Source of the DNA: Cytophagales bacterium
GTDB taxonomy: Bacteria; Bacteroidota; Bacteroidia; Cytophagales; Microscillaceae
Reading direction: 5' to 3'
Length of the DNA: 64,000 bases
Assembly: GCA_013298075.1 (NCBI GenBank)
Contig: JAAFJG010000001.1
Span: 62,001 to 126,000, forward strand
The notes beneath the pieces are model-generated. The model saw nothing but the letters and a program-made list of their open reading frames with translations. It searched no databases and was not told the origin of the DNA. Position numbers and translations under genes: made by a program. Positions within the stretch are counted from its first letter, which is position 1. The number at the start of each line of letters is the position of its first letter. Positions 6,872-59,433 of this stretch are shown piece by piece.

Positions 6872-7681
6872 TTAATCTAAAAAAGTGGGTTCTCTTTTTT
6901 GCATTTTTGCCATAGCAGCTTCCATCGCATCTTGAGAAAAAAGCATAGCCGCATTCCAAGTAGCCACATAATTCAAACTATCTTCTGTGCTATGATTGCG
7001 TGTATAATTGATAACTTCTTTGGTGCCGCGAATAGAAAGTGGCGATTTTTTAGCAATCAATTCTGCTAATTGTTGTACTTTTGTCATCATTTCTGTTTGA
7101 TTGGCAAAAAATTGATTGACTAAATGCACTTCTTTTGCTTCTTTGGCATCAACATTTCTACCTGTATATGCCCATTCTTTAGCTATTCCTTCAGAAACTA
7201 TTTTGGGTAATCTTTGCAAAGTACCTACATCAGCCACAATTCCTAAATCAATTTCTTTGACGCAAAAAATAGCATCTTCTGTACAAAAACGCATATCACA
7301 AGCCGTAATCATATCTATTGCTCCACCAATACAAGCCCCTTGAATGGCTGCAATGACAGGTTTTGAGCATTTTTCAAGCGCCGTAAAAGCATCTTGCAAA
7401 CCTAAAATCCATTTTCGCAAACGCTCACGTACACGCCCTTGCTCGTCTTTCGAAACCATCATTTGTTGAATTTGAGCAAACATTGTCAAATCAATTCCTG
7501 AACTAAAATGTTTTCCTTGTCCTGTCAAAATCACGACTCGAACTTCAGCATTTTCGCTTATTTCTTGCATCACATTTTTGATTTCTACCCAAAAATCAGG
7601 AGTCATTGCATTTGCCTTATCGGGATTATTAAGACTAAGTGTAGCAATTTTATTTTCTATGGTAAGCAATAAAGTTTTCAT
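6872..7681 (-). CDS. Enoyl-CoA hydratase/isomerase family protein, dienoyl-CoA isomerase-like
   Basis: This 269-residue crotonase-fold protein should act on acyl-CoA esters in fatty-acid beta-oxidation. The oxyanion-hole regions are GKHFSSGIDLTMF and AIQGACIGGAIDMITACDMR. The segment DLGIVADVGTLQRLPK matches the signature of delta3,5-delta2,4-dienoyl-CoA isomerases (ECH1 type), whose ADVGTLQRLPK includes the catalytic aspartate, so isomerase activity is more likely than plain hydratase. The start is the ATG at 7679-7681. A 140-aa gene follows 30 bp downstream. An acyl-CoA dehydrogenase sits elsewhere in the window (16.0-17.8 kb), not in the same operon. Confidence 0.88.
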   Translation of the reverse strand: MKTLLLTIENKIATLSLNNPDKANAMTPDFWVEIKNVMQEISENAEVRVVILTGQGKHFSSGIDLTMFAQIQQMMVSKDEQGRVRERLRKWILGLQDAFTALEKCSKPVIAAIQGACIGGAIDMITACDMRFCTEDAIFCVKEIDLGIVADVGTLQRLPKIVSEGIAKEWAYTGRNVDAKEAKEVHLVNQFFANQTEMMTKVQQLAELIAKKSPLSIRGTKEVINYTRNHSTEDSLNYVATWNAAMLFSQDAMEAAMAKMQKREPTFLD

Positions 7682-7835
7682 TTTTTATTTTTATGATTGA
7701 TAACTATATTTAATTCATATATTTTTTGGCAAATATACATATTTTTTTGGGAATAAAAAAATATAATTTGTAATAAAAATTAAAAATATTATTTTTTTAG
7801 AACAACTATTATAGATTATTTTTTGTTATGTAGAT

Positions 7836-8348
7836 ATGTTAAAAAATATTATAGAGACTGAACGTTTAATTTTAAGAGAATTTACGCTCTTGGATACCGA
7901 TTTTATTATCAAACTTTTGAATACAGGTGGTTGGTTATATTTTATTGGTAGTAAAAATGTAAAAAATACCGAAGATGCTAAGCATTATTTAGAAAATGTA
8001 CCTATCAAAAGTTACAAGGAAAATGGCTATGGTTTGTCATTGATTGCCTTAAAAGATTCTTTTTTGCCGATTGGAATGTGTGGTTTGCTCAAAAGAGAAA
8101 CGTTGGATTATCCTGATATTAATTTTGCTCTCTTAGATGAATATATGGGCAAAGGATATGCTTTTGAAATGGCAAATGCGACAATTCAACACGCCAAATA
8201 CACTTTAAAAATTTCAAAAATTGTAGGAATGGCTACGCCTGATAATAAATATTCGATTCAATTATTAAAAAAAATAGGATTGATATACGAAAAAATGATT
8301 GCTCTCCCGCATAATGACGAGGAATTAATGTTGTTTAGTACATCATAA
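7836..8348 (+). CDS. GNAT family N-acetyltransferase (RimJ/RimL-like)
   Basis: The 170-residue protein opens with ETERLILREFTLLDTDFI, the usual start of the RimJ/RimL-type GNAT group. It continues with PIGMCGLLKRETLDYPDINFALLDEYMGKGYA, where the GKGYA region forms the acetyl-CoA pyrophosphate loop, and ends with the family-typical NKYSIQLLKKIGLIYEK. It transfers an acetyl group from acetyl-CoA to an amine of an unknown protein or small molecule. It is divergent from the crotonase operon, and a dispersed repeat follows. Confidence 0.88.
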   Translation: MLKNIIETERLILREFTLLDTDFIIKLLNTGGWLYFIGSKNVKNTEDAKHYLENVPIKSYKENGYGLSLIALKDSFLPIGMCGLLKRETLDYPDINFALLDEYMGKGYAFEMANATIQHAKYTLKISKIVGMATPDNKYSIQLLKKIGLIYEKMIALPHNDEELMLFSTS

Positions 8349-8358
8349 TTTTGATAAT

Positions 8359-8490
8359 AGTATTTTTTAAATGAAAGAGATTTTAGCACACAGATAACAC
8401 GGATTTAGCGGATTAATACGGATTTTTTTCTTTTTTCTCGAATTTTTAATGATTTTTGTCAATTTTTGGTTACCATTTAAAAAAACTCTA
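8359..8490. repeat. Dispersed ~133-bp repeat, copy X (family R3)
   Basis: The block contains AGTATTTTTTAAATGAAAG, TTTTAGCACACA, ACACGGATTTAG and GGATTAATACGGATT. It recurs almost unchanged on the opposite strand at 42700-42833, with only a few substitutions and length changes in the T-run. It has no ORF and fills most of the 409-bp gap before the first type IIG gene. Confidence 0.85.
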
Positions 8491-8667
8491 ATGGCTTTTT
8501 AATTTTGCAAAAAAATATTTATTCCATTATTCTTTCAAGATTTTAGAAAATATGAAATAATTTTATAATATTTACTCTAACATAAAAAAAATATTGTTAT
8601 CAAAATAATAAAATCCAACATTAAATATTTAATTTTTCAACAAAAAATATATTTATTTGTATTAAAA

Positions 8668-8699
8668 TTTGTTTTTTTTAAACAAAAAAAGTAATTTTG
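8668..8699 (+). promoter_or_regulatory. Bacteroidetes-type promoter of type IIG copy 1
   Basis: A TTTG box (8668-8671) and a TAATTTTG box (8692-8699) are separated by exactly 20 bp, which fits the TTTG / TAnnTTTG promoter of this phylum. The ATG follows 58 bp downstream. The same sequence is repeated in front of copy 3. Confidence 0.75.
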
Positions 8700-8757
8700 T
8701 TGGAAAATCATAAAAAAAAACATAGAAAAAAATCACAAAAATATAAAAAATCGACAA

Positions 8758-11187
8758 ATGAAATATCAAAATATCCAAGAACAAGAAATTAAAAATAAAA
8801 TAACCATAGATTATTTTAAAATATATGATTGTACCAAAATGATAGGAAATATAGATTTTTGTGTAACAATATTTAAAGACTCGAAAGAAGAGTCGGAACA
8901 AGAATCGCTTTTGTGGGCAGAGGCAAAAACAGGCGATTCAGATTTATCCAAATCTATCACACAACTTATTCTTACGATAGGAAAAGCAAGGACTTTTGAT
9001 AAATTTTTGCCACCAAATATGTTGGGTGCTTTTGATGGTGAAAAAATGGCTTTCGTTCCTTATAATGAAATCCACGATATTTTTTATGTCAATGATTTTA
9101 ATTGGAATGTTACGCCTTCTAAATATGACACCAAAGAATTTAAGTTGATTCATGAAAAAGTAAAAAGTAATATTGATGAAAAATCATTGCTTTTTTATTA
9201 TGAAAAAGATGATACAGAATTAAAGAATTTTATCAAAGACAATTTCAAAATAGGAAATTTTGGATTTACTAAAACTAAAATTGATAAAAATAATTTTATT
9301 ACGATTTATAATAAATGGCTACAAACCGTAAAACCAACCATAGTCATGAATTGGGATATGGCTAAAAAAAGTGGTATTATTGATGGCGATTTTTATTTAG
9401 CAGATTTATTATCTACTGAAAATGAAAGTTTGAAAGATAATTTATACGTATTACTCAAAAAAGACAAATATTATTTGGATAAAAAATTAAATGAGTTAGG
9501 AATATTTGATACTAAATATACAGGTTTTACAGATAAACAAAAAGCACATACACAATTTTGGAGTATATATGAACGTCCTCCCAAAGAAGAATATTGGGAT
9601 TATATTGTAGGTCGTAGAGATTTACTCGTGCCACAAGACGTGAGAGAGCGAAAAGGTAGTTTTTTTACACCACAAATTTGGGTAGAATTGTCGCAAAAAT
9701 ATCTGACTGATGTTTTGGGCGTAAATTGGCAAGATGAATATTATATCTGGGATTGTGCGGCAGGAACAGGAAATCTGCTCGCAGGTTTGACCAATAAAAA
9801 GAATATTTGGGCTTCTACTTTAGATAAGCAAGATGTAGATGTAATTCATGACCGTATTGAAAATGGTGCGAATCTTTGGAAAAATAATGTTTTTCAGTTT
9901 GATTTTTTGAATGACGATTTTACAAAACTTCCAAAAAATCTACAAGATATTATCAATAATCCTGAGAAACGTAAAAAATTAGTGGTTTATATTAATCCGC
10001 CTTATGCAGAGGTTACTAATGCAAAAACTCAGAGAGATACTGGGGAAAATAGGAATGGATTAGCAGATAGTAAAATAAATGAAAAATATCAAAATATTAT
10101 AGGTTTTGCAGCAAGAGAACTTTTTGCTCAGTTCTTATTTAGAATTTACATTGAAATACAAGGATGTAAAATCGCAAATTTTTCAACCTTGAAAAATTTG
10201 CAGTCGTCTAACTTTTCAAATTTTCGTAATACATTTAAAGCCAAACTTGAAAGAATATTTTTAGTCCCAGCTGATACATTTGACAACGTAAAAGGAAAAT
10301 TCCCAATTGGATTTTTCTTATGGAATACACAAGAAAAAGAAGATTTTAAAAAAATAGAAGCTGATGTTTATCAATATGATGGAATATTTTCAAATACAAA
10401 AACTATTTATTCTTATCAAGATAGTAAGTATGTTATTGAATGGTTAAGAAAATATTATGATAAAAAAGGTGAAAAAATTGCATATTTAAGAATGTTGGGA
10501 ACAGATATGCAACACAACAAAGATATTTTTATTTCAAATGATTTATCTGAAAATGATTTTAAAAAGCATCTTTACACAATAATTACGAAAAATAATTTAT
10601 ATCAAATGGTTATTTATAATACAGTTCGCCACGTTTTGAGAGCTACTTGGTTAAATGATCGAGACCAGTTTTTATACCCCAAAGACAGTTGGGAAAAAGA
10701 TATAGAATTTCAAAATAATTGTTTAACTTTTACGCTTTTTAGCAATAATATTCAATCTAAATTTGGTACAAATCATTGGATACCATTTACAGAAGACGAA
10801 GTAAATGCAAAAGAGGAATTTGAAAGTGATTTTATGGCTAAATATATAGCAGGAAAACTAAAAAATGGTACAGAAAATAAACCACTTATCAAAATAGAAA
10901 AAATAACTCGAAATATTCCTTTGGTATTTTCTCAAGATGCAAAAGAAGTTTTTGAAGCAGGAAAAAAACTTTGGACTTATTACCATAAACAACCAAATTG
11001 TAACGCAAATGCAAGTTTATATGATATACGTTCACATTTTCAGGGTAGAAATGAATCGGGAAAGATGAATCATAAAAGCGATGATAATGCGTATATGCAG
11101 TATATTAATGTGTTACGTGAAAAGTTAAAAGTTTTGGCAAAAAAAATAGAACCAAAAGTATATGAACATGGTTTTTTGTTGAGATAA
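8758..11187 (+). CDS. Type IIG-like restriction-modification protein, copy 1 (nuclease + N6-adenine methyltransferase + recognition domain)
   Basis: The protein has 809 residues. The N-terminal part holds a PD-(D/E)XK-like pattern: NIDFCVTIF, then LLWAEAKTG (D, then E-A-K), within the first ~65 residues. A methyltransferase core follows: GSFFTPQIWVELSQKYL at ~297, SAM-binding motif I WDCAAGTGNLL at ~330 and catalytic motif IV NPPYAE at ~412. Residues ~418-620 differ completely from the sister copies and are taken as the target-recognition domain. The C-terminus, from VRHVLRATWLNDRDQFLYP on, is conserved again. By family knowledge such fusions cut and methylate with one polypeptide. The next gene starts 1 bp after the stop. 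Confidence 0.82.
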   Translation: MKYQNIQEQEIKNKITIDYFKIYDCTKMIGNIDFCVTIFKDSKEESEQESLLWAEAKTGDSDLSKSITQLILTIGKARTFDKFLPPNMLGAFDGEKMAFVPYNEIHDIFYVNDFNWNVTPSKYDTKEFKLIHEKVKSNIDEKSLLFYYEKDDTELKNFIKDNFKIGNFGFTKTKIDKNNFITIYNKWLQTVKPTIVMNWDMAKKSGIIDGDFYLADLLSTENESLKDNLYVLLKKDKYYLDKKLNELGIFDTKYTGFTDKQKAHTQFWSIYERPPKEEYWDYIVGRRDLLVPQDVRERKGSFFTPQIWVELSQKYLTDVLGVNWQDEYYIWDCAAGTGNLLAGLTNKKNIWASTLDKQDVDVIHDRIENGANLWKNNVFQFDFLNDDFTKLPKNLQDIINNPEKRKKLVVYINPPYAEVTNAKTQRDTGENRNGLADSKINEKYQNIIGFAARELFAQFLFRIYIEIQGCKIANFSTLKNLQSSNFSNFRNTFKAKLERIFLVPADTFDNVKGKFPIGFFLWNTQEKEDFKKIEADVYQYDGIFSNTKTIYSYQDSKYVIEWLRKYYDKKGEKIAYLRMLGTDMQHNKDIFISNDLSENDFKKHLYTIITKNNLYQMVIYNTVRHVLRATWLNDRDQFLYPKDSWEKDIEFQNNCLTFTLFSNNIQSKFGTNHWIPFTEDEVNAKEEFESDFMAKYIAGKLKNGTENKPLIKIEKITRNIPLVFSQDAKEVFEAGKKLWTYYHKQPNCNANASLYDIRSHFQGRNESGKMNHKSDDNAYMQYINVLREKLKVLAKKIEPKVYEHGFLLR

Positions 11188-11188
11188 A

Positions 11189-12751
11189 ATGATGGATAAA
11201 ATAAAAAGAGAGAGAACTGGCAGTTTTTTTACACCACAAATTTGGGTAGAATTGTCGCAAAAATATCTGACTGATGTTTTGGGCGTAAATTGGCAAGATG
11301 AATATTATATCTGGGATTGTGCGGCGGGAACAGGAAATCTGCTTGCTGGTTTGACCAATAAAAAGAATATTTGGGCTTCTACCTTAGATAAGCAAGATGT
11401 AGATGTGATTCATGACCGTATTGAAAATGGTGCGAATCTTTGGAAAAATAATGTTTTTCAGTTTGATTTTTTGAATGACGATTTTACAAAACTTCCAAAA
11501 AATCTACAAGATATTATCAATAATCCTGAGAAACGTAAAAAATTAGTGGTTTATATTAATCCGCCTTATGCAGAGGCAACTGCTTCATCTACAATTACGG
11601 GAAGTAATAGACATAAATCTGGGCTTTCACAAAATATTACATATTCTAAATATATTTCTATTTTTGGAAGATCAATTAATGAAATTTTTATTCAATTTTT
11701 TGCTAAAATTTATTATGAAATCCCTGATTGTATAATTGCAGAGTTTTCAAAGTTAAAAATTTTGCAATCACAAAATTTTTATCATTTCCGAGAAAATTTT
11801 AAGGCTAAACTTGAAAAACTTTTTTTAGTTCCAGCTGATACATTTGATAATGTCAAAGGTCAGTTTTCCATAGGGTTTTTTATTTGGAATACCAATATAA
11901 AGGAAAAATTTATAGAAATTCAAGCAGATGTTTTCAATAGCAACGCTAAATATAGTGGTAAGAAGAAAATAACAAATGTTGAAAAAAATAAAGTAATTCT
12001 AAATTGGATGCAAAAATATTATGATAAATCTAATGAAAGGTTGGCTTACATGGTTAGAGGTGCATCTGATTTTCAAAACAGTAAAATAGTATTTATAACT
12101 AATGGAGCTTCTGTAGCAGTAATTGAACACAGCCAAACGCATAATATAACTAAAAATAATCTAACTGAATGTTCTATCTTTTTTGCAGTTCGACACGTTT
12201 TAGAAGCCACTTGGTTAAATGACCGTGACCAATTTTTATATCCAAAAGACACTTGGAAAAAAGATATAGAATTTCAAAATAATTGTTTAACTTTTACACT
12301 TTTTAGCAATAATATTCAATCTAAATTTGGTACAAATCATTGGATACCATTTACAGAAGATGAAGTAAATGCAAAAGAGGAATTTGAAAGTGATTTTATG
12401 GCTAAATATATAGCGGGAAAACTAAAAAATGATACAGAAAATAAACCACTTATCAAAACAGAAAAGGTAATTAGAAATACGCCTTTAGTATTTTCAAAAG
12501 AAGCAAAAGATGTTTTTGAAGCAGGTAAAAATCTTTGGACTTACTACCATAAACAGCCAAAATGTAACGCAAACGCAAGTTTATATGATATACGTTCGCA
12601 TTTTCAAGGTAGAAATGAATCGGGAAAAATGAATCACAAAAGCGCGGATAGTGCGTATATGCAATACATAAATATACTACGTGAAAAATTAAAAGTTTTA
12701 GCAAAAAAAATAGAACCAAAAGTATATGAACATGGTTTTTTGTTGGAGTAA
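11189..12751 (+). CDS. Type IIG-like paralogue, copy 2, lacking the nuclease part (methyltransferase + recognition domain only)
   Basis: The 520-residue product starts with MMDKIKRERTGSFFTPQIW, so it joins the family exactly at the RERKGSFF position of copies 1 and 3. The whole N-terminal ~295 residues, including the putative PD-(D/E)XK site, are absent. Motif I (DCAAGTGNLL) and motif IV (NPPYAE, ~residue 122) are intact, so methylation should be possible. Its variable segment (about residues 128-332) is different from both sisters. The C-terminus matches copy 1 up to GKLKN and copy 3 from DTENKPLIKTEKV onward. It has no promoter of its own and begins 1 bp after the copy 1 stop, so it is probably translated by coupling. 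It may be a modification-only enzyme or a donor of recognition-domain sequence. Confidence 0.78.
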   Translation: MMDKIKRERTGSFFTPQIWVELSQKYLTDVLGVNWQDEYYIWDCAAGTGNLLAGLTNKKNIWASTLDKQDVDVIHDRIENGANLWKNNVFQFDFLNDDFTKLPKNLQDIINNPEKRKKLVVYINPPYAEATASSTITGSNRHKSGLSQNITYSKYISIFGRSINEIFIQFFAKIYYEIPDCIIAEFSKLKILQSQNFYHFRENFKAKLEKLFLVPADTFDNVKGQFSIGFFIWNTNIKEKFIEIQADVFNSNAKYSGKKKITNVEKNKVILNWMQKYYDKSNERLAYMVRGASDFQNSKIVFITNGASVAVIEHSQTHNITKNNLTECSIFFAVRHVLEATWLNDRDQFLYPKDTWKKDIEFQNNCLTFTLFSNNIQSKFGTNHWIPFTEDEVNAKEEFESDFMAKYIAGKLKNDTENKPLIKTEKVIRNTPLVFSKEAKDVFEAGKNLWTYYHKQPKCNANASLYDIRSHFQGRNESGKMNHKSADSAYMQYINILREKLKVLAKKIEPKVYEHGFLLE

Positions 12752-12828
12752 ACAAAAGTAGCAATCCCAATTGGATTAAATATAAATTAAAGTATTACTT
12801 AAACTATAAAAATTAATTGAAAAAAATA

Positions 12829-12860
12829 TTTGTTTTTTTTAAACAAAAAAAGTAATTTTG
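12829..12860 (+). promoter_or_regulatory. Bacteroidetes-type promoter of type IIG copy 3
   Basis: TTTG (12829-12832), 20 bp, TAATTTTG (12853-12860), identical to the promoter of copy 1 together with the flanking sequence. Because the -7 box overlaps the TTG at 12858, that TTG cannot be the start, and the ATG at 12918 is used. Confidence 0.75.
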
Positions 12861-12917
12861 TTGGAAAATCATAAAAAAAACATAGAAAAAAATCACAAAA
12901 ACATAAAAAATCGACAA

Positions 12918-15344
12918 ATGAAATATCAAAATATCCAAGAACAAGAAATTAAAAATAAAATAACCATAGATTATTTTAAAATATATGATTGTACCAAAAT
13001 GATAGGAAATATAGATTTTTGTGTAACAATATTTCAAGAATCTCAAGACATTTCGGAACAGGAATCTCTTTTATGGGCGGAAGCAAAAACAGGAAACTCG
13101 GATTTGTCCAAATCTATCACACAACTTATCCTTACGATTGGCAAAGCAAGAACTTTTGATAAATTTTTGCCACCAAATATGTTGGGTGCTTTTGATGGTG
13201 AAAAAATGGCTTTTGTGCCTTATAACGAAATTCACGATATTTTTTATATCAATGATTTTAATTGGAATGTTACGCCTTCTAAATATGACACCAAAGAATT
13301 TAAGTTGATTCATGAAAAAGTAAAAAGTAATATTGATGAAAAAGCATTGCTTTTTTATTATGAAAAAGACGATACAGAATTAAAGAATTTTATCAAAGAC
13401 AATTTCAAAATAGGAAATTTTGGATTTACTAAAACTAAAATTGACAAAAATAATTTTATTACAATTTATAATAAATGGCTGCAAACCGTAAAACCAACCA
13501 TAGTCATGAATTGGGATATGGCTAAAAAAAGTGGTATTATTGATGGTGATTTTTATTTGGCTGATTTGCTCTCCTCTGAAAATCGAAGTTTGAAAGATAG
13601 TTTGTATGTATTACTCAAAAAAGACGAGTATCAATTAGATAGAAAATTAAACGAGTTAGGAATATTTGATAATAAATCTACAGGTTTTACGGATAAACAA
13701 AAAGCACATACATTATTTTGGAGTAAATATGAACGCCCTCCGAAAGAGGAATATTGGGATTATATTGTGGGGCGTAGAGATTTGCTCGTGCCGCAAGATA
13801 TAAGAGAGCGAAAAGGTAGTTTTTTTACACCACAAATTTGGGTAGAACTTTCTCAAAAATACCTCACTGATACTTTGGGCGAAAATTGGCAAGATGAATA
13901 TTATATCTGGGATTGTGCGGCGGGAACAGGAAATTTACTTGCTGGTTTGACCAATAAAAAGAATATTTGGGCTTCTACATTAGATAAACAAGATGTAGAT
14001 GTGATTCATGACCGTATTGAAAATGGTGCGAATCTTTGGAAAAATAATGTTTTTCAGTTTGATTTTTTGAATGATAGTTTTGATAAATTACCCAAAGAAT
14101 TACAAGATATTATCAAAAGTCCAAAAAAATGCGAAAAGTTAGTGGTTTATATCAATCCACCTTATGCAGAGGCAGGTTCTTCAAAAGCAATTATAGGAAC
14201 AAGTGAACGTAAAGCTGGCGTTACTACTCAATTTAAAATTAATGATTACTTCAAATCTAAAATAGGTAATGCATCAAATGAAATTTTTGCTCTTTTTATG
14301 GCAAATATTTACGAGAAAATTCCTAATTGTAAATTAGCACAATTTTCAAAATTAAAATTTATCAACGGTTTAAATTTTAAAAAATTTAAAAATTTCTTCT
14401 TAGCTGATTATCTTGGTGGTTTTATAGTGCCTGCTGAAACTTTTGATAATGTAACAGGGAAATTTCCTATTGGCTTTACTATCTGGAATACGTCTATTAA
14501 ATCAAAAATAAATAAAATTTCTACAGATATTATCCATGGAAAAGGAAGTCATTCAGGAACTAAAATTTTTTATGCAGACTTATCTCAAAGTATAAACAAA
14601 TGGATAAAAACTTTTGATGATAAAAACAGAGAGGGAATAGGTTTTATGAGTAATTCAGCACCAGACTTTCAACAAAATAATTATTTATACCTACAAATGA
14701 ATAAAGGTGTCGAACACGTTAATTTTTATAATTTCACACAAAATAATATAATAGAAGGTTTAATATATTTTGCAGTTCGCCATTGTATATCTGCCACTTG
14801 GTTAAACGACCGAGACCAGTTTTTATATCCAAAAGACACTTGGGAAAATGATACAGAATTTCAAAATGATTGTTTTATTTATGGTTTATTTCATGGTCAA
14901 AATCGTATTTCAAATAAATACGGCATCAATAATTGGATACCTTTTATTGAATCAGAAGTAGGTGCAAAAAATAAGTTTGAAAGTAAATTTATGGCTCATT
15001 TTATTGCGGGAAAACTAAAAAATGATACAGAAAATAAACCACTTATCAAAACAGAAAAGGTAATTAGAAATACGCCTTTGGTATTTTCAAAAGAAGCAAA
15101 AGAAGTTTTTGAGGCAGGAAAAAATCTTTGGACTTATTACCATAAACAACCAAAATGTAACGCAAACGCAAGTTTATATGATATACGTTCATATTTTCAA
15201 GGTAGAAATGAATCGGGAAAAATGAATCACAAAAGCGCGGATAGTGCGTATATGCAATACATAAATATACTACGTGAAAAATTAAAAGTTTTGGCAAAAA
15301 AAATAGAACCAAAAGTATATGAACACGGTTTTTTATTGAAATAG
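12918..15344 (+). CDS. Type IIG-like restriction-modification protein, copy 3
   Basis: The 808-residue protein has the same order as copy 1: nuclease-like N-terminus with IDFC and WAEAK, GSFFTPQIWVELSQKYL, motif I DCAAGTGNLL near 330, NPPYAE near 412, a unique variable segment ~418-618, then VRHCISATWLNDRDQFLYP and the shared C-terminus. The start is set at the ATG that gives the same MKYQNIQEQEIK start as copy 1; a TTG 60 bp upstream would overlap the promoter. It has its own promoter, so it can be expressed independently of copies 1 and 2. The segment after the recognition domain (NDCFIYGLFHGQNR) differs from the other two copies, while the last ~110 residues are nearly the same as in copy 2. 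Confidence 0.82.
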   Translation: MKYQNIQEQEIKNKITIDYFKIYDCTKMIGNIDFCVTIFQESQDISEQESLLWAEAKTGNSDLSKSITQLILTIGKARTFDKFLPPNMLGAFDGEKMAFVPYNEIHDIFYINDFNWNVTPSKYDTKEFKLIHEKVKSNIDEKALLFYYEKDDTELKNFIKDNFKIGNFGFTKTKIDKNNFITIYNKWLQTVKPTIVMNWDMAKKSGIIDGDFYLADLLSSENRSLKDSLYVLLKKDEYQLDRKLNELGIFDNKSTGFTDKQKAHTLFWSKYERPPKEEYWDYIVGRRDLLVPQDIRERKGSFFTPQIWVELSQKYLTDTLGENWQDEYYIWDCAAGTGNLLAGLTNKKNIWASTLDKQDVDVIHDRIENGANLWKNNVFQFDFLNDSFDKLPKELQDIIKSPKKCEKLVVYINPPYAEAGSSKAIIGTSERKAGVTTQFKINDYFKSKIGNASNEIFALFMANIYEKIPNCKLAQFSKLKFINGLNFKKFKNFFLADYLGGFIVPAETFDNVTGKFPIGFTIWNTSIKSKINKISTDIIHGKGSHSGTKIFYADLSQSINKWIKTFDDKNREGIGFMSNSAPDFQQNNYLYLQMNKGVEHVNFYNFTQNNIIEGLIYFAVRHCISATWLNDRDQFLYPKDTWENDTEFQNDCFIYGLFHGQNRISNKYGINNWIPFIESEVGAKNKFESKFMAHFIAGKLKNDTENKPLIKTEKVIRNTPLVFSKEAKEVFEAGKNLWTYYHKQPKCNANASLYDIRSYFQGRNESGKMNHKSADSAYMQYINILREKLKVLAKKIEPKVYEHGFLLK

Positions 15345-15462
15345 ATAAAAGTAATAATATTATATTTTCGAAATGATTTGAATAGCAAGTAAAATATAAC
15401 TTTGATAATTTTTCTATTTAAAATAAAAAAATCATATCAAATAAATAAAAATCTGCATAAAT

Positions 15463-15494
15463 TTTGTAATTATTTAAAATAGTTTATATCTTTG
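15463..15494 (+). promoter_or_regulatory. Promoter of the SiaC-like gene
   Basis: TTTG (15463-15466), 20 bp, TATCTTTG (15487-15494), the Bacteroidetes consensus spacing. The start codon lies 50 bp further on. Confidence 0.7.
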
Positions 15495-15543
15495 AATATT
15501 ATTAAACTTATCAAAGAATAAAATCAAATAAAATATTAAAATA

Positions 15544-15933
15544 ATGGCTAAAATTGTTGAAAATTATTTTGTAAAAGGAGAAGAAGAAAAACCTACTATT
15601 AACTTTAATGCCCAAACAGGTATTTTAGAAATTGCTGATAGTTCATATCCTGAATATACAAATGATATTTATAACCCCGCAATGGAATGGTTGGAAAAAT
15701 ATATGGAAGAAGCAAATAGAAATATTACTTTTAACTTTCGCTTGGATTATTTTAATACAAGTACTTCTTTTCGTTTTCAACAACTTATCAATGTATTAAA
15801 CGAATACCACATCAAAAAAGGTGGAACTGTAATTATTAATTGGTATTATGAAGAAGGAGATATAGATATGAAAGAAAATGGAGAAGATTATGCAAAAGAT
15901 GCAAAAGTTCCATTTTATTTATTGACGTACTAA
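15544..15933 (+). CDS. SiaC-like (DUF1987) regulatory phosphoprotein
   Basis: The 129-residue protein matches the DUF1987/SiaC family in length and pattern: TINFNAQTGILEIADSSYPE near the start, then FRLDYFNTSTSFRFQQLI at about 65-82. By family knowledge, Pseudomonas SiaC is phosphorylated on a conserved threonine in this NTS region by SiaB, dephosphorylated by SiaA, and controls the diguanylate cyclase SiaD. The equivalent position here is around Thr72/Ser73. No siaA, siaB or cyclase gene is next to it, so the partners must be elsewhere. It has its own promoter and a bidirectional terminator, so it is monocistronic. Confidence 0.85.
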   Translation: MAKIVENYFVKGEEEKPTINFNAQTGILEIADSSYPEYTNDIYNPAMEWLEKYMEEANRNITFNFRLDYFNTSTSFRFQQLINVLNEYHIKKGGTVIINWYYEEGDIDMKENGEDYAKDAKVPFYLLTY

Positions 15934-15974
15934 TTTTTTTGAACATATAAAAATATTGATAGAAAAGAAAAAAT

Positions 15975-16013
15975 AACGTTTATAAAAGTCTTTTCAGAAC
16001 TTTTATAAACGTT
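15975..16013. terminator. Bidirectional terminator between the SiaC-like gene and acyl-CoA dehydrogenase gene
   Basis: Perfect 15-bp arms (AACGTTTATAAAAGT and its complement) with a 9-nt loop lie between two convergent genes. A/T-rich flanks lie on both sides. Confidence 0.8.
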
Positions 16014-16037
16014 AAAAATAAATAATAATTTATAAAA

Positions 16038-17846
16038 TTATACGAAAGATACCTTTTCACTTTCACAAGTCAATACTTCATCATCTAACAAACGAGTCGC
16101 TAAATAACTTGTTTTAGGTACTTCATACGCAAAAAAGAATTTCATTGTATGGATTTTACTTTCATAAAATTCTGTATCTTCTTCTGTCAAGCCGCCTTTT
16201 AATAATGCTTGTTGTGCGTGAATACCTTGCAATAACCATTGCCAAGCAATCGCAGTTGTGCCAAACATTTCCATATATAAAGTCGCATCAGATAAAAATC
16301 TTTCTGTTTCGCCTTTCATAGCAAAACCTACTAAATGTTGCGTAACTTTTTGCACTAATTGTGTTGTTTCTGTCAATTTTTGTGCATATTTTTTCAACGC
16401 ATCATAAGTGCTTGCTTCTTTGATAGTATTTTGAACTTCTTGGAAATACAACATAGCCGCTTTTCCGTTTTTCATCACAATATTTCTACCCAATAAAGCC
16501 TGAGATTGAATACCTGTAGTTCCTTCATAAATAGTTGTAATTCGAATATCGCGATACAATCTTTCTACACCAAAATCGGTACAATAACCACCACCACCAA
16601 ACACTTGCACACCTTGACTAACAGAATGTTGTCCTGCTTCGGTTGGATAAGTTTTTACGACAGGCGTTAAAAAATCTAATAATAATTGATATTTTTCTTT
16701 TTCTTCTCCTGCTTCTAATACGTGTGCTAAATCTGCATATTTTGAGGCTTGCATAATCAAAGAAATCGAGCCTTCTACGATAGATTTTTGGAATAAAAGC
16801 ATACGTTTTACGTCAGGGTGATTGATAATCAACGTTTGTGGCGTATTTGGGTCTTGTCCTTTGATAGTCAATTTTTGTCCTTGTGGTCTTTCATTTGCAT
16901 ATTGCAATGACGCATAATATACATTTGACGCAATGGCTGCTCCTGTAATTCCCACACCTATACGCGCCTCGTTCATCATTTGGAACATATAAGTCAAACC
17001 TTTGTGCGGTTCGCCTACCAAATAACCAACTGTATTATTGTTTGAGCCTGTTTCTAAATGAATAGCGGGAGTTCCTTTTTGTCCCATTTTATGAAAAATG
17101 CCGATTGTTTTTACGTCATTATCCACAAATTGTCCATTTTCAAGACGATTTTTAGGCACAACAAACAAAGAAATTCCTTTTGTACCTGCGGGCGCACCAT
17201 CTATGCGAGCCAAATATAAATGCACAATATTATCAGCAAATTGATGATCACCTGCTGAAATATAAATTTTATGTCCTTTAATTTTATAACTTCCATCTTC
17301 TTGTGGCGTAGCCGATGAAGTGATATAATGCAAAGAACTTCCGGCTTGTGGTTCGGTCAAACACATAGTTCCTTGCCATTTTCCACCATACATATTAGGC
17401 AAATAAGCGTCTTTTAATTCTTGTGAAGCAAAAGATGCAATTAAATTTGCTGCACCAGCGGTCAACCCTGTAAACATAGTGATACTATTGTTTGCGGCTG
17501 TCAAAACGAAACCTGTGGCAGTTTGCGACATCACAGGAAGTTGTGAACCGCCCATTTCTAATGAACCAGCTGCACCCAAAAGTCCAGACTCGCCCATTGC
17601 TTTCATATATTTTTCTACTGCGGGGTGAACAGTAACTTTTCCATCAGCAAATTCTGCTTGGTCTTTATCCATTCCTTCTGCTGATGGATAGGCGATAGTA
17701 TCTGCGATTTGTACGGCAGAATCAAAGACCATTTCTAAAGTTTCGTGGTCTAAGTGTGAAAAATGCGGATATTTTGTGATTTCAGATGCTTCGAATACTT
17801 CGCGCACTAAAAAGCGAAGATTACGTAAGCTATAGTACTTTGCCAT
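16038..17846 (-). CDS. Acyl-CoA dehydrogenase with C-terminal extension domain
   Basis: The 602-residue flavoenzyme should oxidise an acyl-CoA to the 2-enoyl-CoA using FAD. Family motifs are MCLTEPQAGSSL, NEARIGVGITGAAIASNVYYASLQYANERPQG (read in two parts), and QVFGGGGYCTDFGVERLYRD followed by ITTIYEGTTGIQSQALLGR. The length (about 600 rather than 380) and the tail after LLGR fit the long acyl-CoA dehydrogenase group with an extra C-terminal domain, to which 3-methylmercaptopropionyl-CoA dehydrogenases also belong; the substrate cannot be decided here. The start is the ATG at 17844-17846 (MAKYYSLRNLRFL). Monocistronic by its surroundings. Confidence 0.92.
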   Translation of the reverse strand: MAKYYSLRNLRFLVREVFEASEITKYPHFSHLDHETLEMVFDSAVQIADTIAYPSAEGMDKDQAEFADGKVTVHPAVEKYMKAMGESGLLGAAGSLEMGGSQLPVMSQTATGFVLTAANNSITMFTGLTAGAANLIASFASQELKDAYLPNMYGGKWQGTMCLTEPQAGSSLHYITSSATPQEDGSYKIKGHKIYISAGDHQFADNIVHLYLARIDGAPAGTKGISLFVVPKNRLENGQFVDNDVKTIGIFHKMGQKGTPAIHLETGSNNNTVGYLVGEPHKGLTYMFQMMNEARIGVGITGAAIASNVYYASLQYANERPQGQKLTIKGQDPNTPQTLIINHPDVKRMLLFQKSIVEGSISLIMQASKYADLAHVLEAGEEKEKYQLLLDFLTPVVKTYPTEAGQHSVSQGVQVFGGGGYCTDFGVERLYRDIRITTIYEGTTGIQSQALLGRNIVMKNGKAAMLYFQEVQNTIKEASTYDALKKYAQKLTETTQLVQKVTQHLVGFAMKGETERFLSDATLYMEMFGTTAIAWQWLLQGIHAQQALLKGGLTEEDTEFYESKIHTMKFFFAYEVPKTSYLATRLLDDEVLTCESEKVSFV

Positions 17847-49531: not shown

Positions 49532-52500
49532 CTACCTAATCACCAACCAAGTCAATAATTCAAAATGTTTTTCGTTTCCTATTTCTTGTTCTGCCACTAC
49601 TTTTTTGTTGATTCCAAAAAGATTTTGTTGATTAGTTTCTGTTGCTTTTCCACGTATTGCTTGCATCGCAGATAGAATCAATCGATCATATAAATTCATA
49701 TCAGTTCCATTTTTTGTATCTTCATTAAATACATTACAAAGTTCTGGAATAGGATTTTTGTGAGGGCTGGCAATTTGTCTAAAAAGCGTTAATATTTTTT
49801 TAGGTTCTGTATAAGTGTGTTTTATTTCGCCATCTGCATTAATCCAAATCAAAAAAATATTTTTCAAAGGATTAAGATGTTGCGTTTTTTCTGCATTTTC
49901 TTTTTGTAAAAAACAAAATATAACGCCATTTTTAATATCTTTATTCGCTAATTTTTCAAAATTAGGTATTAAATTTTTGTACTCTCCCGCAGGCGAAGGC
50001 ACGATGCTATACAATCCATTCGCACTATTTTTGAAGGAATCATCTTTTAAAAATGATTTTAATTCCTCAAAAAATTCATCCATAGAAAACTCATTGAAGT
50101 TAATGCCATTGTCCACTTCTTCCAAATCCAAAGGTCTTTCTTTCAATTTTTTAAGTTGTTCGGCTCTATAATTCAATTCATTTTTTTCTTGAGTTTCGGC
50201 TTCTTCGATTGCTTTGGTATCCAAAATATTATCATCAGCCGTTGCTATCACATCAACCAAAGCCATTCTTGCTTTTACTCTTATTTCGAGATTGAGATAA
50301 ATATCGAGGTCAGCAGTAGGCCAGAAATTAAGCATTTGAATTTGTTTATTTTTGCTTCCTAATCTATCAATACGCCCAAAACGTTGTATCAAACGCACAG
50401 GATTCCAATGAATATCATAATTGATAACAAAATCACAATCTTGCAAATTTTGTCCTTCTGAAATACAATCGGTGGCGATTAAAATATCAATTTCAACGTC
50501 TTGTGGCATATTTTTCATCAAATTTCTATTTTTAGAAATAGGCGAAAAGTTAATCAATAAATCATTAAAAAGTGTCGAAATATTTTGCGAACTTTGTATA
50601 TTTGTTTGATTTTGGCGACTTCCTGTTACCAAAGCCGAATACATATTGAGTTCTTTTTTTGCCCAATCAGCAATATTTTCGTACAAATATAAAGCCGTAT
50701 CTGCATAAGCCGTAAAAATCAATATTTTTTTATTGCCTTTATTGATTGGATTTTTGATTTTATTTTGAATAGCTTCTTTCAAAATAGACAATTTTTTATC
50801 TCGTTTTGGAGTTATAGGTTTGGCAGTTTCTGAAACCGCCTCTAATTTTTCTTTGTCTGTATTCAAATCTATTAACCATTGATCAACGTCAATATGTTTC
50901 AAATTATAATGTAGTTTTTTGCCAACTAATTCATTAAACTCACTTATTTCTTCATCTTCATTATTTTCATTCAAAGAATCGGGTAAATCATTTTGTTCAA
51001 TTTCGACTTCCTTTTCTTTATTGATTTGAAAAATTTTAATTTTATCTTCCAATTTTTTAATTTTATCAATCGTAGAAGTTAAAGTTTTGGTAAAAGCAAA
51101 AATAGAACTTTCTAACCTTTTCAAAAAACCAACTTTCATCATACCAATCAAATATTTTTCTCGGTCTGCTTGATTAAAATTATCTTGATTCCCTTTTTTA
51201 TTGGTATTATTTTGTTTTTTTTCTTCCTTTTTTGCTTGTTTTTCTTCGTCTGTTGGTAAATTATATTTTTCTCTAAATTCATTATACACATAACGCGAAG
51301 GATTAAAAAGTACCAAATTATATTCTGATATTTTTTGATTGATAGCAGCAAAAGTAGGAAATAAATTTTGAATATCAATTTCAGGGCTTTGATTCATATT
51401 CAAAAGCCTTTCAGGAAAACTAATCGATTCAGTATCTTCATAATTACTTTTGATTTGTTGGCGAGAGCGTGCAATGGTTAATTCACTCAAAAGCGTAAAA
51501 AAATCTACGCCCAAAACATCAAAAAGTTGAGAGGATTTTTGGTTTGTATTGATAGTTGGGTCAGCCCAAGCCGTAAAGTTACGTTGTGCTTCTTTGAGCA
51601 AATTGCCGATGTGTGGAATACCCAAATTGTCTTTAAACGCATTGTCTTGTCCCTCTGTAATAAAATATAATTGATTGCGTAAATCTTTCAAAGTCGTATT
51701 GACGGGCGTAGCAGAAAGTAATAAAACTTTTGTTTTGATGCCTGTTTTGATGATTTCTTTCATCAATTTACCATAACGACTGATTCTTTTTTCTGTTGAT
51801 TTGCCTGTATTTCTAAAATTATGGCTTTCATCAATCACGACCAAACCATAATTTCCCCAATTCACATTATTCAATTCCATTCCTTGCGAATTTGTGCCTT
51901 GTGTGCGTGTGAGGTCTGTATGGGCGAATACGTCATAACTAAATCTATCGTCTTTCAAAATATTTCTATCGTCATTTTGCGTATAAATCAACCAGTTTTG
52001 CTCCAATTTTTTGGGACAAAGCACCATTACACGATTGTTTTGTAACTCAAAATATTTGATAACCGCCAACGCCTCAAATGTTTTTCCCAAACCTACGCTA
52101 TCGGCAATGATACAACCATTATAAACTCGTATTTTATCAATCGCAAGTTTTACGCCTTCCGACTGAAAATGATATAATTTTTCCCATATTTTAGTTTGTT
52201 TTAAACCTATTTTTTCGCTAATGCTTTCAATTTCTTCACTTCCTTTGAGTTTTTGGCTAAAAATATGATATAAAGTTTTGAAATAAATATATTCGGGACT
52301 TTTATCGGTATAAATTTCTTCTAAATATTTTAAAACGTCTTCTTTTACATCTTCTATTTTTACGTCTTCTACGCCATTTTCCCAAATCGTATCAAACCAA
52401 TTTTTCAATGCTTTTATATCTCTATTATCATTGACAATCATATTGAGTTCTAAATTAGACTTTTGTTTGAGTCCCAAACCGCTGACCGTAAAATTTGAAC

Positions 52501-52936
52501 TTCCTGTAACTGCTTTGGCTGCTCCTTTGTCTTTGGGTTGGATATAATACATTTTTCCGTGCAAAAAATCAGGTTTTATCATCGATTTGATGGCTACTTT
52601 TTCTTTGAACCAATCATAACAATTTTTGGCTGTTTCTTTTTGTTTCAATACATTTACGAGCGTAATTGTATCATCTTTTTCTATTTTAAATGATTTGCTT
52701 TCATTTTTTTCGGGGTCTAAATTTCTCAAAAAACTGGGTTCTCCGAACAAAAAACGCACAGATTTTACGCTGTCTAATTTTTGTTTTAGACGTTCATACG
52801 CATAAATCGTAAAATAAGCAGAAACAATAGAAAGTTCTGAATCAGCCTCAATATTTTCGGTTAAAAAATCGGCTACACTTCCATTTTCTCTATTGTCTAA
52901 TAAAGAAGAAGGATTATCTTTGGGAGAATTTGGCAT
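49532..52936 (-). CDS. PLD-nuclease-like + SNF2/DEAD helicase, defence-associated
   Basis: The 1134-residue protein has an N-terminal phospholipase-D-like domain (HGKMYY with His126/Lys128, then TGSSNFTVSGLGL and an acidic NLELN). It carries only one HxK motif, so it would have to dimerise to be a PLD nuclease. A superfamily 2 helicase follows: Walker A DSVGLGKT (279-286), DESH (369-372), SAT (408-410), and the C-terminal motifs ILIATDCISEGQNLQ and RFGRIDRLGS. The order PLD then helicase is known from ATP-dependent restriction and DISARM-like systems, though the companion genes differ here. It is the last gene of the minus-strand cluster. Confidence 0.87.
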   Translation of the reverse strand: MPNSPKDNPSSLLDNRENGSVADFLTENIEADSELSIVSAYFTIYAYERLKQKLDSVKSVRFLFGEPSFLRNLDPEKNESKSFKIEKDDTITLVNVLKQKETAKNCYDWFKEKVAIKSMIKPDFLHGKMYYIQPKDKGAAKAVTGSSNFTVSGLGLKQKSNLELNMIVNDNRDIKALKNWFDTIWENGVEDVKIEDVKEDVLKYLEEIYTDKSPEYIYFKTLYHIFSQKLKGSEEIESISEKIGLKQTKIWEKLYHFQSEGVKLAIDKIRVYNGCIIADSVGLGKTFEALAVIKYFELQNNRVMVLCPKKLEQNWLIYTQNDDRNILKDDRFSYDVFAHTDLTRTQGTNSQGMELNNVNWGNYGLVVIDESHNFRNTGKSTEKRISRYGKLMKEIIKTGIKTKVLLLSATPVNTTLKDLRNQLYFITEGQDNAFKDNLGIPHIGNLLKEAQRNFTAWADPTINTNQKSSQLFDVLGVDFFTLLSELTIARSRQQIKSNYEDTESISFPERLLNMNQSPEIDIQNLFPTFAAINQKISEYNLVLFNPSRYVYNEFREKYNLPTDEEKQAKKEEKKQNNTNKKGNQDNFNQADREKYLIGMMKVGFLKRLESSIFAFTKTLTSTIDKIKKLEDKIKIFQINKEKEVEIEQNDLPDSLNENNEDEEISEFNELVGKKLHYNLKHIDVDQWLIDLNTDKEKLEAVSETAKPITPKRDKKLSILKEAIQNKIKNPINKGNKKILIFTAYADTALYLYENIADWAKKELNMYSALVTGSRQNQTNIQSSQNISTLFNDLLINFSPISKNRNLMKNMPQDVEIDILIATDCISEGQNLQDCDFVINYDIHWNPVRLIQRFGRIDRLGSKNKQIQMLNFWPTADLDIYLNLEIRVKARMALVDVIATADDNILDTKAIEEAETQEKNELNYRAEQLKKLKERPLDLEEVDNGINFNEFSMDEFFEELKSFLKDDSFKNSANGLYSIVPSPAGEYKNLIPNFEKLANKDIKNGVIFCFLQKENAEKTQHLNPLKNIFLIWINADGEIKHTYTEPKKILTLFRQIASPHKNPIPELCNVFNEDTKNGTDMNLYDRLILSAMQAIRGKATETNQQNLFGINKKVVAEQEIGNEKHFELLTWLVIR

Positions 52937-52993
52937 ATATATATAAAAGTTTTTTTTTGAGAGATTTTTTTTTGTTTTTAGAAAGATAAAATT

Positions 52994-53221
52994 TTAAGCC
53001 GTTATGTCTTCTTTTGAAATGGTTAAAATATGAATATCAGCAGCTTTTAAAATTTCATTCAAATCATTTAAGTATTTATTTTTAAGATGTTTTTCTTGGC
53101 GAATGGATAAATTATTATCGTTTTCACCCATATTTTTACACTGAGTAATTATTTTATCACAACCTGCTATCAAATCTAATAAATGATTGATAACACGATA
53201 AGGAATTTTTGATGCGTCCAT
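52994..53221 (-). CDS. Small hypothetical protein in the defence cluster
   Basis: From the ATG at 53219-53221 it encodes 75 residues, predicted helical and charged (RVINHLLDLIAGCDKIITQC, then SIRQEKHLKNKYLNDLNEIL). There is no recognised domain. It lies between the second ATPase gene and the helicase gene on the same strand, with 57 bp to the helicase, so it may be a regulatory or accessory subunit of that operon. Confidence 0.6.
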   Translation of the reverse strand: MDASKIPYRVINHLLDLIAGCDKIITQCKNMGENDNNLSIRQEKHLKNKYLNDLNEILKAADIHILTISKEDITA

Positions 53222-53377
53222 TTTTTTTATCAAAATTAATCATTTTAATTGTTAGATTTTTTATTTCTCTGATTCTTATTTTTTTAAGTAACGAATACGA
53301 AACGCTTTGATTGCTTAATTTATTTTATAATCCTATTTTTCAACCCGAATTTCTACAAATCATTAAAAAACTATATT

Positions 53378-55114
53378 TTATGGTTTTATTTCGTTTATAA
53401 GTTGTTGGAGATTTTTTTCTCTTACATAAAACTTTTGAGGTAAGTCATTCAAATTAAACTCAAAACTAAATTCATCACACAAAAATTTATACATTTCTTG
53501 TAAAGATTCAAACTCTTTATTTTTAGAAATATCATCAACCCCATTTTTTCGAATATTTTTAAGTTGAATTTTACATCTATTCAAAAGTTTTTCGGTTTCA
53601 TTGGCTACAAGCAATGTAATATTTTCTTTGATTAAAATTTCTGCACCATTATTTGTATCAAATTGAAATAAGGCAGTTTTTCCTATTGTATTTGGTATTG
53701 GTTTTAAAGTAATATTTTCTAATTTTTTCAAAACTTTCATTACATCAATCAATTCTTGTTTAAAAATCGGATTTTTAATGTCATTATGAGAAAGAGGATT
53801 TAAAACGGCATCTTTATAAATACCTAAATTTTCAAAATCAGCATAATCTAAACCTTCTCCATCACAAAATTCTTTTAAGTTCGTTATAAGTGCATTAAGC
53901 CTTTTTTTCTCTGTCGCATATCCTTCTTCTTTGGTCTTAACTTCTACTTTGTAATAATAAGGAGTCAATATTTTTTCTAAAATATCTTCGCAGGTTTTTC
54001 GTAAATAAGAACCACACGCAGGATAATCGTGTTTTGCCAAATAATATTCTGCCTTTTGGATATGTGTTTTCGTTTCCAAAATCAGAGGCACATCAAAATT
54101 ATTAGTAAAATCATCTACATACATTTCAAAAAACTTCCAATTTTTCTTATCTTTATTTTCAAACCATTGTTTCGCTAACTCAAACCAAGTCCTATCATAA
54201 GTAGTCATAAAAATTTGATAATCTGAAAATTCATTTTTCAAAATATCTAACAAAGGCAAACGATTCGACGTATCCAAACCGATAAAAATATCATCTAAAA
54301 AAAGAATTTTGATAGTAGGTGTAGGAGTTTCTTTTAAAGATGCCAAATACATACAAATTGCCAACGCAGACAAACGGGCTTCGTTTAAAAAATCAAAATA
54401 CGATTGTGTTATTTTTTCATGATGATAATTGATAGAAAGTTTAATTTCTTTCACAAATTCACCTTTTTGCCACAAACTTTCAAAACCAAACTTAAATGTA
54501 ATATTTTGTTTGAAATATTCGTTTAACATTCGATTGGCAGTATTTTCTATGGTAGTTAATAAAGTATTAAACGCTTCATCAAAAATAGGTATTTTTTTAT
54601 CAATGACTTCTTTAAAAATAATTGTATTTTTTCTACTTTCTAAACCTTTTTCTATGTCTTCTAAATATTTGCCAAACGTAGTAAAAAGCTCAGAATCATA
54701 AGTATTTTGCAATACAGTTTCGATAAGTAAGGCAAATAAATCAGGACTTTTTTCGGTCTTTTCTGCTATATATACACGCAAAATACGCTGGTAGGTAAGA
54801 AAAGGATTGTAATTATGTACGTCTTTAAAAATATCATTTTTGTCAGCAGGCAAAATACCATTTGTATATTGATACAAAATACCATTATCAAATTCAAAAT
54901 ATACCTCAACTTTGTCTGTTGCTTGTATAAATATATTTTTTTCTATCTTTTTGGGTGTTTTGCTTGCCTCAAAAAAATGAACAAACGCCTTATACAAACT
55001 ACTTTTACCACTGCCATTTTCACCATACACAAGTAAATTTTTACCTGATATATTGATATGATGTTTGCCATAAAAAGCACGATAATTTTCAAATTCTATG
55101 TGAGTAATTTTCAT
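53378..55114 (-). CDS. RecF/SMC-like ATPase paired with methyltransferase 2
   Basis: The 578-residue protein has Walker A GENGSGKSS at residues 31-39. A degenerate signature, LNEARLSALAICMYLA, follows late in the sequence, then Walker B KILFLDDIFIGLDTSNR and a D-loop/H-switch region (QIFMTTYDRTWFELA, which has Tyr/Asp where a His is usual). The C-terminal ~200 residues are helical (DYPACGSYLRKTCEDILEKI). It starts 48 bp after the methyltransferase stop. The same domain layout is seen in the sister ATPase (59515-61146), although the sequences are far apart. Confidence 0.85.
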   Translation of the reverse strand: MKITHIEFENYRAFYGKHHINISGKNLLVYGENGSGKSSLYKAFVHFFEASKTPKKIEKNIFIQATDKVEVYFEFDNGILYQYTNGILPADKNDIFKDVHNYNPFLTYQRILRVYIAEKTEKSPDLFALLIETVLQNTYDSELFTTFGKYLEDIEKGLESRKNTIIFKEVIDKKIPIFDEAFNTLLTTIENTANRMLNEYFKQNITFKFGFESLWQKGEFVKEIKLSINYHHEKITQSYFDFLNEARLSALAICMYLASLKETPTPTIKILFLDDIFIGLDTSNRLPLLDILKNEFSDYQIFMTTYDRTWFELAKQWFENKDKKNWKFFEMYVDDFTNNFDVPLILETKTHIQKAEYYLAKHDYPACGSYLRKTCEDILEKILTPYYYKVEVKTKEEGYATEKKRLNALITNLKEFCDGEGLDYADFENLGIYKDAVLNPLSHNDIKNPIFKQELIDVMKVLKKLENITLKPIPNTIGKTALFQFDTNNGAEILIKENITLLVANETEKLLNRCKIQLKNIRKNGVDDISKNKEFESLQEMYKFLCDEFSFEFNLNDLPQKFYVREKNLQQLINEIKP

Positions 55115-55162
55115 ATATTATTTTTATTTAAAGAAATTTTAGAATGTTTTTATATCAAATTA

Positions 55163-59149: not shown

Positions 59150-59167
59150 AAGAATAAGTTTTTTTTG

Positions 59168-59199
59168 CAAATATAAATAAAAAAGTATTAGTTTTGAAA
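59168..59199 (-). promoter_or_regulatory. Probable promoter of methyltransferase copy 2
   Basis: On the minus strand TATATTTG (59175-59168) matches TAnnTTTG, with TTTC (59199-59196), one base off TTTG, 20 bp upstream. It would give a separate transcript for methyltransferase 2 and the downstream genes, with a very short leader to the ATG. Confidence 0.45.
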
Positions 59200-59268
59200 A
59201 CAAGAGAGAGATTTTATTTTTTGATGCTTAAAAAAGTTTGATTCAATATATTTTTTTTTGAAATATTT

Positions 59269-59355
59269 TCTTGAATTGCCTCCAGATTTATCTGAATTGC
59301 CTCCAGATTTATCTGGAGGATAATATAAAATTCAATAGTTGGCTTTAGCCAAAAT
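59269..59355. repeat. REP-like repeat of family R4, inverted and partly duplicated copy
   Basis: Read on the plus strand it has GAATTGCCTCCAGATTTATC twice in tandem, then CTGGAGG, then TTCAATAGTTGGCTTTAGCCAA. It matches the reverse complement of 49411-49475 except for the added unit. Together with the palindrome at 59411 it fills the ~300-bp gap between ATPase 1 and methyltransferase 2. Confidence 0.8.
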
Positions 59356-59410
59356 TTGTTACTGTAATTAAAAGTGTGGGAAATTATTTTGTAACAAAAT
59401 AGTTTCTCAT

Positions 59411-59433
59411 TGGTCTGTGGTACACAGACCAAG
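59411..59433. repeat. Hairpin (10-bp arms) after ATPase 1
   Basis: TTGGTCTGTG and its complement around GTA. It is followed by two copies of TTTCGGTCTGTGT at 59453-59485. There is no T-run on either strand, so a terminator role is not clear. Confidence 0.6.

Follow-up and report, generated by a model that had tools for sequence, protein, structure and literature searches.

The window analysed here, a 64,000-nt stretch of the genome of a Cytophagales bacterium, most probably (we put it at roughly 0.8) contains an array of one gamma-class single-chain restriction-modification (RM) family, in which two full enzymes and a nuclease-less methyltransferase make up a reshuffled stock of specificities. 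Family-wide alignments and trees showed the exchange, as a unit, of a block running from the NPPYAE motif to about residue 620, both between paralogues and between genomes, with flanks that stay alike within a genome. A first-pass annotation of this DNA had described three type IIG-like genes with swapped recognition segments and had interpreted them as a reservoir of recognition domains; our analysis confirms the former in part and lends partial support to the latter.

The three tandem genes were found as annotated, as open reading frames on the plus strand (8758-11187, 11189-12751, and 12858-15344). Copy 1 (A1, 8758-11187; 809 aa, AlphaFold2 pLDDT 84.7) combines an N-terminal nuclease-like region (residues 1-288, 8758-9621) carrying D33, WAEAK (E55, K57), and Q69, a methyltransferase core (residues 293-418, 9634-10011) recognized by DCAAGTGN, NPPYAE, and its fold matches, the exchangeable recognition block (residues 419-620, 10012-10617) delimited by family alignment entropy and identities, and a conserved C-terminal region (10618-11184) that coincides with a C-terminal repeat and is evident in the alignment. 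Copy 2 (A2s, 11189-12751; 520 aa, pLDDT 81.9) is a nuclease-less, methyltransferase-only paralogue that starts one base past the stop codon of copy 1; its frame begins at a point corresponding to residue ~290 of the full-length protein, its leader reads MMDKIKRERTGSFFTPQ, and the family alignment places its recognition block at 11576-12181. Copy 3 (A3) is a full-length paralogue whose frame was listed from 12858 but whose ATG equivalent to the copy 1 start lies at 12918, yielding 808 aa; its recognition block (14172-14774) is common to C109, a copy on another contig of the same genome.

The sequence sharing described in the first-pass annotation was likewise recovered. The upstream region common to copies 1 and 3 forms a direct repeat on the plus strand (8653-8757 and 12813-12917) with 87-100% identity per 60 columns and, taken together with the N-terminus (8653-8952 versus 12813-13112), is 86% identical over 300 nt. 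All three copies have the core repeat (97% and 91% DNA identity to copy 1) and the C-terminal repeat in common; identity drops at NPPYAE and is regained near ATWLNDRDQ. Given these open frames and long repeats, the array lies far beyond chance. The longest exact stretches common to its copies measure 169, 132, and 100 bp, so the flanks offer enough similarity for recombination, as had been proposed. With a longest exact repeat of 169 bp and no N runs, the array is credible as assembled. Two kinds of switch were considered and rejected: a DNA-inversion switch of the hsdS shufflon type, as no inverted repeat pairs of at least 40 nt occur in 7000-17000 and all copies lie on one strand, each with a start, and phase variation, as the longest homopolymers in 8400-15400 are runs of 8-9 A or T that offer no convincing switch. 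Two same-genus genomes have the SiaC gene that follows the array (94% and 93% protein identity), but window DNA upstream of SiaC aligned to them only in a short stretch immediately preceding it, which gives no date for the gain of the array at this site. Elsewhere in the window, the minus strand of 49532-63812 carries a run of apparent defence genes, including a helicase with a PLD/NgoFVII-like nuclease, an SMC-like ATPase, and Eco57I-type RM proteins.

Pfam, NCBIfam, PADLOC, and PHROGs yielded nothing at E<=0.01 for the three window proteins, nor did a single-sequence search of the PDB with copy 1 give a match. DrdV ranked first in structural searches, both for copy 2 (Z 19.2, rmsd 3.4, 249 residues) and for copy 1, which aligned with it over residues 1-639 (Z 18.4-18.5) in a multi-domain alignment with an rmsd of 11.8-13.6 Å. 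Further fold matches included BpuSI, MmeI, CamA, M.TaqI, others, and the Type ISP enzymes LlaGI and LlaBIII (Z 16.4-18.0); the latter resemble the window proteins in the methyltransferase and recognition fold but differ in that the 809 aa window chain has no helicase-like ATPase between nuclease and methyltransferase. Indeed, no helicase match was obtained for the window proteins, and the region before the methyltransferase spans only ~290 residues. Among 91 aligned family members, D332, GTGN (336-339), and NPPY (413-416) are invariant, as are E55, K57, and Q69, while D33 is conserved in at least 90%. The D33...E55xK57...Q69 series is what we take to be a PD-(D/E)XK nuclease site. Small GTPases also appeared in a PDB profile search (best E 4e-4, residues 491-628), and Pfam Roc/Ras matched a few of 37 family members; as these Rab/Ras matches lie around a short FPIGFxIWDT-like stretch in the conserved methyltransferase strands, whereas the whole-chain folds match methyltransferases, we rejected them as due to chance.

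Copies 1 and 3 thus look like single-chain Type IIG enzymes with a PD-(D/E)XK-like N-terminus, a gamma-class m6A methyltransferase, and a recognition region. Both have the motifs and fold of gamma-class m6A methyltransferases, with the variable block placed, as expected of a recognition region, C-terminal to NPPY and the methyltransferase strands. The methyltransferase assignment is well supported by these predicted structures and motifs, and the nuclease assignment less so, its basis being motif residues plus multi-domain fold alignments in which the rmsd is large. Copy 2, which lacks the nuclease part, falls outside Type IIG/IIL; judged from its sequence, it should only methylate. The label of the first-pass annotation, which took all three proteins for Type IIG-like, therefore holds for copies 1 and 3 but not for copy 2.

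To the variable region we applied an entropy profile and an alignment over 111 distinct family members, with the copies from genomes G008 and G012 treated as duplicates of L053 and L092 and with relatives listed for 80 of 212 loci. Two variable stretches, residues 419-450 and 526-620 in copy 1 numbering, flank the more conserved methyltransferase strands at 451-525. Protein identity between copies 1/2, 1/3, and 2/3 is 97/91/89% in the core, falls to 25/27/27% in 419-450, rises to 65/53/53% in 451-525, falls again to 36/24/26% in 526-620, and recovers to 86/76/81% in the C-terminal region. The ~200 residues had been called unrelated in the three genes, which is correct for the two outer stretches and wrong for the middle one; alignable homologues, named in advance as the outcome that would count against the annotation, were encountered only in that middle third. 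Median identities over all family pairs are 24% (419-450) and 27% (526-620), and the 36% between copies 1 and 2 in 526-620 exceeds this median but stays below the 95th percentile (41%). Among 5460 pairs with both segments measurable, 70% of those at least 45% identical in 526-620 also reach at least 45% in 419-450, versus 3% of the other pairs. Since the two segments move together, we treated 419-620 as one exchangeable block; the exchanged region may extend to about residue 670, where a short indel varies even within pairs.

The genome (4.71 Mb, 153 contigs) yielded 20 family match rows, corresponding to nine complete full-length genes, three nuclease-less companions (A2s, C99a2s, and C99b2s), four contig-end fragments, and four divergent rows on contig C66, that is, at least 12 complete family genes plus four contig-edge fragments in an assembly that places several copies at contig ends. 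Family matches occurred in 13 of 37 genomes including this one, the others having 0-6 rows each; the set holds one genome per species, and the relatives are mostly metagenome-assembled genomes in which misbinning is possible. The copy on C135, considered as a short one, reads RERKG at the contig edge as in full-length genes and hence is a full-length copy cut by that edge. A search for contig-end overlaps joining C109, C141, C69, and C135 gave none. The C66 locus (L040, 4993-9316) holds a divergent relative, 28-30% identical to copy 1, in which an 825 aa gene is followed by an apparently frameshifted copy of its second half (84%). A search of a phage collection with copy 1 found nothing; a 61% relative lies on an IMG/VR contig (L009, 8001-10409), which may be phage-borne or a host stretch.

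Backbone and block have different nearest relatives. For all 14 copies analysed in this genome, the closest core and C-terminal relative resides in the same genome, as does the closest N-terminal relative of the nine evaluable copies. For segment 526-620, by contrast with these flanks, the closest relative of 10 of the 14 belongs to another genome, the exceptions being the pairs A3/C109 and C99a1/C99a2s; in copy 2 it is the full-length enzyme L064, at 65%. C96 and C99b1 have no relative above 36% in this segment, near background, so for them block exchange is only inferred. Over all pairs, identity in 526-620 does not correlate with that of the core or the N-terminus (Spearman 0.00 and 0.01); between N-terminal and core identities, by contrast, there is a correlation (0.52). 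Relatives of the blocks at 60-79% identity occur in other genomes, on backbones at background similarity.

Phylogenies agreed with this picture. In a 41-row backbone tree, the copies of this genome formed one clade (support 99), a grouping that was rejected for the recognition block (p-AU 5.8e-10); the 27 external rows of this tree, built without L066, L178, and L186, were picked as nearest by 526-620, a choice that biases the block tree towards mixing. We also built unselected trees of 100 rows (the 111 minus 10 partial or frameshifted ones and minus L039, which had too few columns). On their backbone, the copies of this genome, of JAAFKA, and of RDXG each formed one group, while on the block tree four genome groups required 13 changes versus a shuffled mean of 12.7. 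As the copies of this genome form a clade on the backbone but not on the block, and as the unselected block tree follows genome of origin no more closely than shuffled labels would, these comparisons show that recognition blocks have passed from gene to gene and from one genome to another. They bear out the earlier proposal that the variable block acts as an exchangeable recognition module. Copy 3 provides a case within the genome: its variable segments are 82% and 73% identical to those of C109, with a core identity of 82%, and dS is 0.53 for the block and 0.85 for the core, so that its block resembles that of this paralogue on a backbone that is copy 1-like.

The tandem, swapped-recognition pattern recurs in the same genome in at least three unrelated single-chain RM families. 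Type_ISP_C proteins of ~1100-1150 aa occur as three copies on C85 (L042), three on C76 (L043), two on C72 (L046), and at least two on C136 (L045); these tandem copies have no helicase match and mostly 80-100% identical flanks, with a recognition part (within about residues 660-960) that is mostly 10-60% identical. This genome has 22 Type_ISP_C match rows versus 0-6 in 33 relatives, and 44 Eco57I match rows. At G000:C143:22066-26411, two Type_ISP_C matches of equal score, separated by 3.3 kb, are probably another tandem pair. An Eco57I/TaqI_C cluster on C104 (L041, 2997-12306) follows the order full, short, short, full; its short, nuclease-less genes are 90-100% identical over ~220 residues and mostly 10-60% beyond, which is the architecture of the window array in an unrelated family. 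On C80 (L044, 4751-11354), two tandem enzymes of 1078 and 1068 aa have an exact 1806 bp repeat and differ mainly in ~80 residues of the TaqI_C specificity domain; they may be a minimal pair supplied by nature or an artefact of the assembly.

Such pairs bear on whether diversifying selection drove the recognition segments apart in place once the genes had duplicated, with no transfer at all, which would be compatible with tandem copies beginning as duplicates and with the fast evolution of recognition regions. The C80 copies, exactly alike over 1806 bp, nevertheless show 37-58% DNA identity over ~180 columns, and locus L065 of another genome likewise holds two tandem full-length copies exactly alike over 1256 bp with variable segments of 15-23% identity, although both exact repeats could be assembly errors. 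Together with the 60-79% block relatives found on background-similarity backbones and the rejection of an own-genome clade for the block, these data strongly disfavour divergence in place, which we regard as highly improbable.

Copy 2 has counterparts. A nuclease-less companion lies directly behind a full-length gene in all three cases in this genome, as well as in G006 and L083/G160, from two other genera. The three companions of this genome have the leader MDKIKRERTGSF/Y in common, and the same arrangement in G006 and G160/L083 comes with leaders MDKLKREKTGSF and MDRLKREITGSF; a search for the leader pattern gave hits in 3 of 390 genomes of the order, and none among viral contigs. Core dS between companion and partner is 0.12-0.13 (A and C99b) and 0.09 (C99a), against 0.8-1.2 between different pairs, and reaches 0.35 (L083) and 0.44 (G006) outside this genome. 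The common leader, together with the partner-like cores, suggests that the companions are an old class of genes, which gene conversion has homogenised, rather than independent truncations, in which the leader would have had to arise repeatedly. These comparisons point to copy 2 as a member of a lasting companion class whose core has probably been kept partner-like by gene conversion.

It is improbable that copy 2 is instead a decaying fragment, retained only through hitchhiking and gene conversion. Its missing nuclease would fit decay, as would the altered WLNDRDQ motif, otherwise conserved, in the C99a companion and the L083 companion frame, which matches query residues 296-620 only, after which the alignment ends. 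Still, all three companions of this genome keep intact frames of 520-529 aa and the catalytic NPPY, their leader is conserved in three genera, and the core dN/dS in the three full/short pairs is 0.03-0.19.

Somewhat less unlikely, though still doubtful, is that copy 2 serves as a dedicated second-strand methyltransferase for an asymmetric site of copy 1. Methylation of a single strand is described for MmeI and many Type IIG enzymes, as is the need of some Type IIG families for a second methyltransferase (PMC3936762); reviews describe systems with accompanying methyltransferases, e.g., Eco57I and BpuSI (PMC4081073, PMC3874165). The constant position of the companion behind a full-length gene, in this genome and at L083/G160 and G006, is also what such a role would predict. 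Against it, the companion blocks that differ from those of their partners (A2s, C99b2s, and the L083 short gene) are nearest to full-length enzymes (L064; L082:3-1991 and L076; and L100, respectively) and so form no dedicated set, and no partner pairing of blocks recurs among loci, with four pairs having both blocks readable. Blocks differ in two of the three pairs of this genome; in the third, C99a, they are 92-100% identical, which fits methylation of the same strand, not the opposite one, and adds no second specificity.

Under the reading we favour, of a family array with a reshuffled stock of specificities, copy 2 could not cleave alone. The three specificities that had been proposed to stand side by side would then be at most two cleaving ones and one limited to methylation. 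The blocks, each of which may set a different target, would be exchanged through the conserved flanks (core and C-terminal) by ordinary homologous recombination or by gene conversion; copies 1 and 3 would methylate and cleave, copy 2 would only methylate, and gene conversion would keep the companion core like that of the upstream full-length gene. The net effect would be a parallel, slowly reshuffled stock of specificities rather than a proven fast switch. A more elaborate version, which we consider speculative and unlikely, takes the nuclease-less copies of this genome-wide, multi-family stock as pre-methylating safe holders, whose block is later gene-converted into the neighbouring nuclease-bearing gene. 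A block arriving first in a methylation-only gene would find the chromosome already protected by the time it acquires a nuclease, and the C99a pair would be caught just after or before such a transfer.

Comparison with known systems places the array closest to Type IIG/IIL enzymes (DrdV, BpuSI, and MmeI), with which it agrees in the order of parts and the methyltransferase fold, DrdV being the best structural match. It differs from them in that the window proteins are unmatched in family libraries and, by single-sequence search, in the PDB, in its tandem methylation-only paralogues, and in a block exchanged whole, including the segment right after NPPY. Eco57I-type systems resemble the array in pairing an RM enzyme with an accompanying methyltransferase, but in the window the companion nearly duplicates part of its RM partner, and PF07669 (Eco57I) had no match at E<=0.1 among 37 family members, nor at E<=0.01 for the window proteins. 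Domain movement (DOMO) in the S genes of Type I and Type IIG systems of Helicobacter pylori (PMC3077401, PMC3983042) similarly relocates recognition-domain sequences through recombination in conserved flanks. In the strict sense, DOMO shifts a sequence from one position to another inside an S-subunit gene; in the window family, tandem and dispersed single-chain paralogues exchange the block without any change of position, and blocks align at that one position rather than at two. CjeFV, HP1517, and JHP1409, epsilonproteobacterial Type IIG enzymes described as methylating one strand (PMC3936762), are a further candidate for comparison with the family. A relative of the window family does occur on an H. 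pylori plasmid (NZ_KM583817.1; L194, 6001-8894), where it is unannotated, 47% identical, in three pieces, and probably broken.

Published work reports that Borrelia burgdorferi has as many as 20 Type IIG systems and that genomes have two on average (PMC3874165, PMC4081073), and that each genome of the Bacteroides fragilis group holds 2-38 methyltransferase genes (PMC10333322). Exchange of target recognition domains is already known; multi-family arrays with methylation-only copies are what is new here. Such arrays did not surface among the titles and abstract openings of the literature searched, in which subscription journals are little covered, nor in the passages on Type IIG enzymes and domain movement of the RM works cited here. 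If the proposed reading is true, single-chain RM enzymes diversify through whole-block exchange among tandem paralogues, beyond point changes or separate S subunits. The copies would also constitute natural chimaeras in which to read the recognition code, notably the C80 and L065 pairs, which differ mainly in the recognition part. The nuclease-less companions, finally, raise the testable question of how a new cleaving specificity may be gained without cutting the bacterium's own chromosome.
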